A stretch of 17,619 nucleotides of DNA. Origin: Gemmatimonadota bacterium. GTDB lineage: Bacteria; JBHIER01; G020348925. The stretch lies in the NCBI GenBank assembly GCA_020348925.1, contig CP070758.1, positions 1,019,762-1,037,380 on the forward strand. The letters are read 5' to 3'. The notes below the pieces were generated by a model that saw only the letters and a list, made by a program, of their open reading frames with translations, searched no databases and was not told where the DNA came from. This document shows, piece after piece, positions 5,388 to 17,619 of the stretch (position 1 is the first letter of the stretch; every line of letters begins with the position of its first letter). Made by a program: the position numbers and the translations under genes.

Positions 5388-5578
5388 ATGCCCTGAAACG
5401 TGAGCTGCTGGACCGTCCGGCGAGCGGAGTGGCCGTTTTTTCCGCTGTTTGAGGGCAAGCGAAGCGAAACCGAGTTCGGAAAAAACAGCGCAGCGAGCCG
5501 TCGACGGTCCCGGCGAACGTTTTTCGGGCTGGCCTTTCTTTTTGATTCTTTTTCTTTGGCCAGCAAAGAAAAAGAAGG
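5388..5578 (+). repeat. R element copy 1 (structured repeat, about 190 bp)
   Basis: Starts at ATGCCCTGAAACGTGAGC and ends in a pyrimidine/purine hairpin. Nested stems: GGACCGTC (5410-5417) with GACGGTCC (5503-5510); GTTTTTTCCG (5435-5444) with CGGAAAAAAC (5477-5486); GTTT (5447-5450) with AAAC (5467-5470). The 3' module has GGCC (5531-5534), loop TTTCTTTTT (5535-5543), stem TTCTTTTTCTTTG (5546-5558) with CAAAGAAAAAGAA (5564-5576), and a second GGCC (5558-5561) able to pair back. Open frames on both strands here vary in reading between copies and are not genes. The 45 bases upstream (from 5343) are also duplicated in copy 2. Confidence 0.9.
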
Positions 5579-5713: not shown

Positions 5714-5905
5714 ATGCCCTGAAACGTGAGCCGCTGGACCGACAGGCGAGCGGAGTGGCCGTTTTTTCCGCTGTCTGAGGGCAAGCGAAGCGAGACCGAG
5801 TTCGGAAAAAACAACGCGGCGAGCCGTCGACGGTCCCGGCGAACGTTTTTCGGGCTGCTCTTTCTTTTGCTTCCTTTTCTTTGAGCACACAAAGAAAAGG
5901 AAGGG
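5714..5905 (+). repeat. R element copy 2 (tandem to copy 1)
   Basis: About 90% identical to copy 1 up to the terminal module and shifted by 326-327 bp, including the leader GAGAGATAAGAGGAAGACA (5670 here, 5343 in copy 1), so a unit of about 240 bp was duplicated. Paired changes keep the folding: GTCT/AGAC (5773-5776, 5793-5796) replaces GTTT/AAAC. In the 3' module TGCTC/GAGCA (5856-5860, 5883-5887) replaces TGGCC/GGCCA. The stem is TTCCTTTTCTTTG (5871-5883) with CAAAGAAAAGGAA (5890-5902). Confidence 0.9.
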
Positions 5906-14434: not shown

Positions 14435-15097
14435 GAGAGATAAAGAGGAATGAGGTTATATTTAAAACATTATCGTTTTGAACAGTCTTTCTCTGCAATG
14501 ATAAATCGTTGCACTCCGCCTTTTTTCTATCTTGTTTTCGCTTAAAAACTGATCCCGGAGTGGAGTGAAATGATTCATCATTTCAGAATGTTCGACAATC
14601 TCAGCTTCATTTCAAAAGGGGAGGCTCAGCGATGATGTTTAGAATTATATACTTTTCATATCCATGAACCAAAGGATTATATAATATCATGATGCCTTGA
14701 CTCTTCAATGCCCTGAAGCCTGAGCCGTTAGACCGACAGGCGAGCGGAGCGGCAGTTTTTTCCGTGTCTGAGTCCCCGAGAATCGGGGACGAGTTTGGAA
14801 AAAACAGCGCAGTGAGCCCTTGATGGTCTCGGCGAAGGATTTGGGCTGGCCTTTCTTTTTGTTTCTTTTTCTTTGGCCAGCAAAGAAAAAGAAAGGGAAT
14901 GCTGGTTTTACTTCTTCAGGGAATTGATTGGTGCCCCTTGGTCAAATGTCTTTACGGGCCTGTTTTTCCGTCACCCATCGATCCAAGATTCGGGGTATTA
15001 CAGAAACGAATTCGATAACGTACGCATACATTCTTGCAATAGGACGAAAAGAGAAAAATCACGTCATATAACATACCGGAAAGTGAGGTGAATAACT
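14435..15097. other. Gene-free stretch holding R element copy 3
   Basis: Besides the R element (14708-14897) it contains a perfect inverted repeat TGAAATGAT-TC-ATCATTTCA at 14566-14585, operator-like but without an adjacent gene. Bases 14900-15080 presumably carry the promoter of the aldolase gene; I cannot point to clear hexamers. I see no coding frame that I trust. Confidence 0.55.
14708..14897 (+). repeat. R element copy 3
   Basis: Same start motif (ATGCCCTGAAGCCTGAGCCG) and same ending as copy 1. The outer stem has changed in a paired way (AGACC/GGTCT instead of GGACC/GGTCC). The T6/A6 stem is kept. The apical part is swapped for a strong hairpin GTCCCCGA/TCGGGGAC (14772-14790). Terminal module: GGCC (14848-14851), TTTCTTTTT (14852-14860), stem TTTCTTTTTCTTTG (14862-14875) with CAAAGAAAAAGAAA (14881-14894). 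Confidence 0.9.
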
Positions 15098-15971: not shown

Positions 15972-16185
15972 ACGCCCTGAAGCCTGAGCCGTCAGACCGA
16001 CAGGCGAACGGAGCCCTTCGACTTCGCTCAGGACAGGCTCTGTTTTTTTAGTGTCTGAGTCCCCGATATTCGGGGACGAGTTTGGAAAAAAACAGCGCAG
16101 TGAGCCGTTGACGGTCTCTGCGAAGGCTTGGGGCTGCCCTTTCTTTTGCTTCGTTTTCTTTGGGCAAACAAAGAAAATGAAGGGG
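15972..16185 (+). repeat. R element copy 4 with an internal replaced arm
   Basis: Begins ACGCCCTGAAGCCTGAGCCG. One arm carries a different dispersed repeat (CCCTTCGACTTCGCTCAGGA, about 16013-16040). The internal stem is lengthened on both sides to T7/A7 (CTGTTTTTTT with AAAAAAACAG), while other copies have six of each. The apical hairpin is GTCCCCGA/TCGGGGAC (16059-16077). Terminal module: TGCCC (16135-16139), TTTCTTTT (16140-16147), stem TTCGTTTTCTTTG (16150-16162) with CAAAGAAAATGAA (16169-16181), GGGCA (16162-16166). Confidence 0.88.
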
Positions 16186-16201
16186 ATATCAGAAGCTGAG
16201 A

Positions 16202-16289
16202 TCGCACAGGATATGTATCCTGTGCGAAGGGATGGATAGGGATATATATCCCATTAAATATTTTCGCCCAGCATACATATACTGGGCGA
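16202..16289 (+). promoter_or_regulatory. Three palindromes at exact 31-bp spacing upstream of the alcohol dehydrogenase
   Basis: Palindrome 1 (16202-16227) has 12-base arms TCGCACAGGATA/TATCCTGTGCGA. Palindrome 2 (16239-16252) is GGGATATATATCCC. Palindrome 3 (16264-16289) has arms TCGCCCAG/CTGGGCGA with an inner ATA/TAT. Centres are 16214.5, 16245.5 and 16276.5, so both steps are 31 bp with 11-bp spacers. Outer copies differ by a compensated pair (A-T to C-G). The set ends 64 nt before the dehydrogenase start and may be a cooperative regulator site; no regulator is identified. Confidence 0.6.
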
Positions 16290-16353
16290 TCAAGTTTTTC
16301 CTTATTCTACGGGGCGGGCTTCGTTACCGTCACCGAACAACGAGGTCGAAAAT

Positions 16354-17523: not shown

Positions 17524-17619
17524 ATGCCCTAAAGCCTGAGCCGTCAAGACCATCCGACGCATGGAGCGGCCGTTTTTTCCGTGTCTGAGGACGAGCTGTG
17601 CGAGCCCGAGTTTGGAAAA
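17524..17619 (+). repeat. R element copy 5, cut by the window edge
   Basis: ATGCCCTAAAGCCTGAGCCG, then GCGGCCGTTTTTTCCGTGTC and GAGTTTGGAAAA at the edge. The T6 arm and the start of the A arm are visible; the apical part (GAGGACGAGCTGTGCGAGCC) differs from all other copies. The terminal hairpin module would lie beyond the window. Confidence 0.85.

Follow-up and report, generated by a model that had tools for sequence, protein, structure and literature searches.

Telomerase RNA and related H-type pseudoknots carry major-groove U.A-U triples in which loop 1 (L1) lies in the deep groove of stem 2 (S2), and only a few RNA classes are known in which a triple-helix pseudoknot is naturally conserved. 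Triplexes that contain cytosine depend on pH, as a C+.G-C triple requires protonation, and triplex-stabilized RNA ends provide the analogy from which exonuclease protection can be argued. Among DNA motifs, the class IV intrastrand triplex (Hoyne/Maher classes; ITxF database) is defined by tract order alone, and instability has been associated with intrastrand triplex motifs (PMC4666352).

The window analyzed here is the whole 17,619-nt stretch at positions 1,019,762 to 1,037,380 of a 5.04-Mb genome assembled as one scaffold, for which no relative closer than the domain level is found among the genomes compared. An initial annotation had proposed that a 49-nt motif at 5528-5576 can form an H-type pseudoknot with a built-in triple helix. 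We observe that this motif is the 3' terminus of an interspersed element of about 190 nt, and we assign a probability of roughly 0.6 to the reading that the element works as a folded strand, likely RNA, made up of a rod and a triplex pseudoknot that may serve as a 3' cap.

An interspersed element of about 190 nt

BLAST searches of the source genome with the first copy in the window returned 40 dispersed matches, about 26 of them near full length and about 14 fragments, with a cluster of about eight copies within 1025-1048 kb. Five copies lie on the forward strand of the window. Copy 1 (5390-5577) runs from the conserved block that starts with GCCC at 5390 to the 3' end of S2, and comprises a rod, from its basal helix P0 to an apical hairpin, followed by the putative triplex pseudoknot. 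Copy 2 (5716-5903) has a stem 1 (S1) of the GCTC/GAGC type and an 8-nt L1, copy 3 (14710-14894) is of the GGCC type with a 9-nt L1, and copy 4 (15974-16182) is of the GCCC/GGGC type with an 8-nt L1 and an insertion of about 22 nt in the rod. Only the 5' part of copy 5 is present (17526-17619), truncated by the window end and an assembly gap just past it; that this copy runs into a run of N (17619 onward; L092:3482) suggests that the repeat broke the assembly. Directly after copy 4, at 16200-16291, there are two more palindromes, GATCGCACAGGATATGTATCCTGTGCGA and TTCGCCCAGCATACATATACTGGGCGATC.

Across 23 copies from this genome, majority-base conservation is 0.37 to 0.64 in the 30 nt before GCCC and 0.98 in the first five bases of the block, and on the 3' side it drops from values of 0.85 to 0.99 close to the end of S2 to 0.43 just after it. 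The unit of the element is the predicted fold, in that the conserved block begins and ends with the proposed structure. The same 23 copies show no direct repeat common to their flanks, no conserved promoter was found for the element, and its copies have no preferred orientation relative to neighboring genes, occurring in both directions. Searches against plasmids and phages gave partial matches only. Minus-strand open reading frames across the copies were dismissed as side effects of the tract, because structure-preserving changes account for the conservation. We consider an interspersed, mobile origin likely.

Layout of the 3' module

The proposed third strand, L1 (TTTCTTTTT, 5535-5543), stands in parallel register with 5565-5573, inside the purine 3' arm of S2 (CAAAGAAAAAGAA, 5564-5576), whose pyrimidine 5' arm is TTCTTTTTCTTTG (5546-5558). 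The 3' arm of S1, GCCA (5559-5562), lies within the S2 loop. In the initial annotation L1 had been placed at 5535, 5861, 14852, and 16140 and the A-rich arm at 5565, 5891, 14882, and 16170, and all of these positions are confirmed. S1 had been given as GGCC (5531-5534) pairing with a second GGCC; the 3' arm so drawn (5558-5561) overlaps the 5' arm of S2, and G5558 is counted twice. Apart from this one base, the original observation is real. The clean, non-overlapping S1 is TGGC (5530-5533) with GCCA (5559-5562), which gives 4 bp, and C5534 can compete for G5558.

An exact 30-nt offset between L1 and the purine arm had also been claimed, and it holds in all four complete copies of the window; it is not universal elsewhere, where the register is still kept. 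Within the source genome the subtypes maintain the offset by compensation, a 9-nt L1 going with a 5-nt S2 loop and an 8-nt L1 with a 6-nt loop. Overall the S2 loop measures 3 to 7 nt (6 nt in 63 of 98 rows). An L1 of 8 to 9 nt plus a 2-nt linker fits the crossing of S2, but loop 3 (L3) has only 1 to 2 nt with which to span an S1 of about 4 bp, so that the caveat first raised for a loop of 2 to 3 nt not only stands but is somewhat worse. Such an L3 over a 4-bp stem is shorter than in any pseudoknot we know of, and because of it, full S1 and full S2 may not both form at once.

Plain RNA folding recovers S2 alone, with modest z-scores (-0.8, -2.6, and -3.8), and the support for the module is for this reason comparative rather than energetic. 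An antiparallel pairing of L1 with part of the purine arm, over 7 to 9 bp, is possible as well, and RNAalifold prefers it.

Compensatory changes in stem 1 and the third strand

For S1, one element was drawn per genome or contig (31; an earlier version of the test had n = 29), and in the permutations the loops were dealt to other genomes. At least three contiguous Watson-Crick pairs are found in a mean of 27.4 of the 31 (minimum, 26), against 7.5 expected and a maximum of 15 in 5,000 permutations; for at least four pairs, the corresponding values are 20.7 of 31 against 2.4 expected (maximum, 9). Compensation thus maintains the pairing in about 27 of the 31, far above the permutations. The 40 distinct S1 helices of at least 3 bp include TGCG, CTGGC, TGTC, CGGC, TGTG, CGTC, GCGG, and GTGGC, and S1 is missing from a Burkholderia cepacia locus (L357), from L129, from one copy in genome G819, and from some further single copies.

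The third strand was compared at places chosen by S2 only, blind to L1, a selection used to avoid circularity. In 40 of these 42 places TTTCTTTT runs parallel to the purine arm and matches it exactly at 8 of 8 positions (T.A-T or C.G-C), with one of the remaining places reaching 7 and the other 3, whereas the same comparison on the other DNA strand scores 0 to 3. A telomerase-type triplex calls for a third strand that runs parallel to the purine strand of S2, with T.A-T or C.G-C at each position, and the module fulfills this. Where variants have moved the C-G position, all three strands have changed in concert. In two viral loci (L265 and L127) a AAAAAAGAAA purine arm comes with the third strand that matches it exactly, TTTTTTCTTT; in L265 there is in addition an S1 of CGCCC/GGGCG. 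An S2-only scan for TTTCTTTTTT..AAAAAAGAAA gave 95 viral stretches, which are mostly unrelated hairpins, and the moved-C pattern TTTTTCTT does not occur in 299 Pseudomonadota. In the phylum of genome G022, G103 has TTTTT with AAAAA and an S1 of AAAAGGG/CCCTTTT, and G126 to G128 have CTTTT with GAAAA and an S1 of CTTGAA/TTCAAG; these were found by a search that requires S1 and were left out of the S1 test.

In the source genome, all 13 copies whose arm has A carry T as the ninth L1 base, and none of the 9 copies whose arm has T, G, or C does, a pattern that reflects two subfamilies and not 22 independent events. The outer part of S2 contains 22 G.T wobbles and no A-C; every wobble is on the L1 strand, with its G in the 5' arm, as expected if the L1 strand folds alone. 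Copies that break the pairing or the register without compensation had been named in advance as what would refute the structure; with many more copies checked, this is not borne out overall. Two crossing helices, each with compensatory changes (outer S2 pairs are C-G, A-T, G-T, and T-A), meet the helix criterion for an H-type pseudoknot. On this comparative evidence, we regard it as highly likely that a pseudoknot with an S1 of about 4 bp and an S2 of about 13 bp would form directly after P0, and nearly as likely that L1 would be the third strand of S2. Pseudoknot and third strand are well supported as a predicted single-strand structure, with a steric doubt that comes from the 1- to 2-nt L3.

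A rod with variable 3' ends

RNAalifold, applied without prompting to 22 copies from the source genome (alignment A1), returned a long rod of 49 pairs, 21 of them with two-sided changes, in which GCCC closes with GGGC directly 5' of the S1 5' arm and so adjoins the pseudoknot. In the named structure 88.6% of cells are paired, and its covariation is 0.210; shuffling lowers this to 0.120 (0/500) and sliding to 0.082 or less. The internal loops of the rod are symmetrical and rich in G.A (GCGAGC/GCGAGC; TGTYTGAG/CGAGTTT), and these tandem G.A loops look RNA-like.

A covariance model (R1) built only from source-genome copies, without S1, matches five copies in G022, a genome of another phylum, over positions 1-188 (E values of 4e-14 to 5e-10), and its matches in other genomes have E values of about 1e-8 to 1e-10. 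Folding of the DNA upstream of the module also gives rods that close beside the S1 5' arm in G022 (134 nt, 46 pairs), G557 (148 nt, 49 pairs), G705 (137 nt, 48 pairs), and others; since closure near this arm was what the search looked for, this result is no more than supportive. Within the G022 phylum, 23 of 98 genomes contain the motif TGTYTGAG..CGAGTTT, with up to 67 places in one of them. The triplex module is one among several 3' ends of rods in this phylum, and with many of these rods lacking a triplex pseudoknot, the pseudoknot is therefore not needed for spread. We note that G160 and other genomes of the phylum (L371 to L382) hold up to 67 rods per genome, with different 3' hairpins that replace the triplex module. 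In proteobacterial rods (L209, L182, L193, L165, and L170) there are ANGGA-loop hairpins, for example GCACAAGGATGTGC, that resemble CsrA sites.

Distribution of the module across bacteria

With exact patterns, the module was located seven times each in G022 and G819, in viral contigs, and in 6 of 299 Pseudomonadota, one of which has 38 copies; the reversed control pattern gave no match in any genome searched with the module pattern. A generic structural scan that required an S1 of at least 3 bp (4.4 Mb, both strands counted) retrieved the element family and two AT-rich, low-complexity matches, and an S2-only search of 321 genomes of one class was positive in 17. In some unrelated bacteria the module reaches tens of places per genome. 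The same predicted knot recurs in unrelated bacteria of several groups, with compensating changes.

Megaplasmids of Paraburkholderia (L354, L355, L356, and L132) contain outward-facing inverted pairs of elements, about 0.5 to 0.7 kb apart; each holds tens of element pieces, and copies and inverted pairs are common to strains. Paraburkholderia caribensis is a carrier that has been cultivated. No clean empty site was found in these megaplasmids, and the site in P. phymatum differs over about 800 bp. One G022 copy (L139:2072-2421) lies about 0.5 kb from a tmRNA gene.

Interpretation and alternatives

Whether the folded strand is RNA or single-stranded DNA is the first choice to be made. In a DNA version the pseudoknot is real and the 3' module is a terminus that is recognized, as in REP or attC, by a Y1 transposase (IS200/IS605 or RAYT type) or a similar enzyme on the lagging strand. 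The element is interspersed and multi-copy, inverted pairs occur in Paraburkholderia and in G126, and the source genome has two Y1 transposase genes, one about 2.2 kb from a copy; single-stranded DNA hairpins tolerate G.T pairs too. An association of Y1 genes with the module is nevertheless not supported, since they are about equally common in carriers (19 of 24) and non-carriers (12 of 16), and five carriers (G022, G634, G697, G703, and G650) have no Y1 match, so that the REP/RAYT criterion of a dedicated transposase in the same genome is not met. There is also no fixed flanking tetranucleotide or target, and the tandem G.A loops speak for RNA. We consider the DNA version unlikely without dismissing it, and favor RNA because of the internal loops of the rod and the Rfam families that touch the element; that the element acts as RNA is probable, not proven, and there are no transcript data.

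The other alternatives concern the triplex itself. The shortness of L3, the antiparallel 7-bp pairing of L1 with the purine arm that RNAalifold selects, and the loops of G103 and G126, which are almost wholly complementary to the S1 5' arm (7 and 6 bp), would suit a two-state switch between a plain S2 hairpin and S1 with L1 antiparallel to the purine arm, without a triplex pseudoknot at any one time. Such a switch seems rather improbable to us, as the parallel match is complete in the variants (8/8, 9/9, and 10/10) whereas the antiparallel one is partial (7 to 9), and the register begins at the first A of the purine arm. The initial annotation had left RNA and H-DNA side by side, and in favor of the latter, the pyrimidine tract comes close to a perfect mirror repeat and meets the homopurine-homopyrimidine criterion, from which an intramolecular triplex in supercoiled duplex DNA could affect replication or genome stability. 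Duplex H-DNA predicts neither S1, nor the rod, nor strand-specific G.T wobbles, and because of these wobbles and the covariation of the rod we exclude it as the main cause and give it hardly any weight; what remains of the earlier pair is a single-strand structure.

Under the preferred reading of a folded, probably RNA, element, we infer that it would multiply as a non-autonomous interspersed repeat and, in the absence of a conserved promoter, be transcribed by read-through from its neighbors. The rod would fold first and the 3' pseudoknot last, and the triplex might then be a 3' cap at which 3'-5' exonucleases stall, allowing the element RNA to persist, while the exposed rod, which differs between lineages, would have different binding partners. 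The data support the fold alone; protection from exonucleases is an analogy that we hold tentatively, and a function in protecting the 3' end has not been shown and remains speculative. It is likewise no more than a possibility that these elements form a cross-phylum family of bacterial mobile RNAs that multiply in folded RNA form, with a telomerase-like triple-helix pseudoknot as 3' cap and a rod adapted by lineage to binding, for example, CsrA. If the account is true, a repeat that evolves on all three strands would be a large natural library for the rules of triplex formation and a candidate 3'-protection device in bacteria, and it would explain why the repeat has reached databases only in fragments, as spurious small open reading frames, Bp1_684, and TwoAYGGAY.

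Comparison with known systems

No published description of the element was found, including by literal sequence strings (subscription papers were outside the search), and there is no Rfam match at gathering score over the window, only a chance microRNA match (E = 0.24). The element seems undescribed as one family, with Rfam overlapping it only at its edges and in some lineages. In B. cepacia and Paraburkholderia, Bp1_684 (RF02421, a Burkholderia sRNA candidate) sits at the module's 3' edge and begins with AGAAAAGU, which is the end of the S2 purine arm; the model cuts through S2 and is without the L1, S1, and rod of the element. At L357:2533-2644 it starts inside the purine arm, so that the Rfam model has apparently been cut short on its 5' side. 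Candidate 684 is not mentioned in the main text of the Bp1_684 source paper. TwoAYGGAY (RF01731) and other RNAs that bind CsrA/RsmA resemble the element in the ANGGA-loop hairpins of its proteobacterial rods, and gathering-score matches to TwoAYGGAY overlap the rod in G372 loci. The copies in the source genome and in G022 differ in having no ANGGA loops; several such loops are the criterion for a CsrA-sequestering RNA, and they are absent from the A1 rods of the source genome.

REP/RAYT, ERIC, and MITE-type repeats are, like the element, short, non-coding, dispersed, intergenic, and structured. The element differs from them in that neither terminal inverted repeats nor a target-site duplication, the MITE criterion, was found, and in a fold that is conserved across phyla. 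The Bordetella BRE repeat (PMC3110155), which is GC-rich and about 90 bp long, is not the element. BoxC (TM_ECO) of Escherichia coli is also multi-copy and dispersed, and its other strand has the same three-part order (CCCTCACCC-TAA-CCCTCTCCC-TCA-GGGAGAGGG); it is G/C-rich and has a 3-nt loop, and neither of the two copies read has complementary S1 arms. As a relative it was rejected, with the third-strand order common to both and S1 lacking in BoxC, and the A/T-rich module does not meet the G/C-rich BoxC pattern CCCTCNCCC.

The class IV motif shares with the element the succession of third strand, pyrimidine arm, and purine arm on one strand, with parallel T.A-T and C.G-C triples. It has no S1, pseudoknot, or rod, and the word pseudoknot does not appear in its description (PMC4666352). 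Compared with telomerase RNA, the element has a much shorter loop 3, is a multi-copy bacterial repeat, and comes with no template or reverse transcriptase that we could see; what it has in common with telomerase-type pseudoknots is a loop 1 that runs parallel to the 3' purine strand of stem 2.
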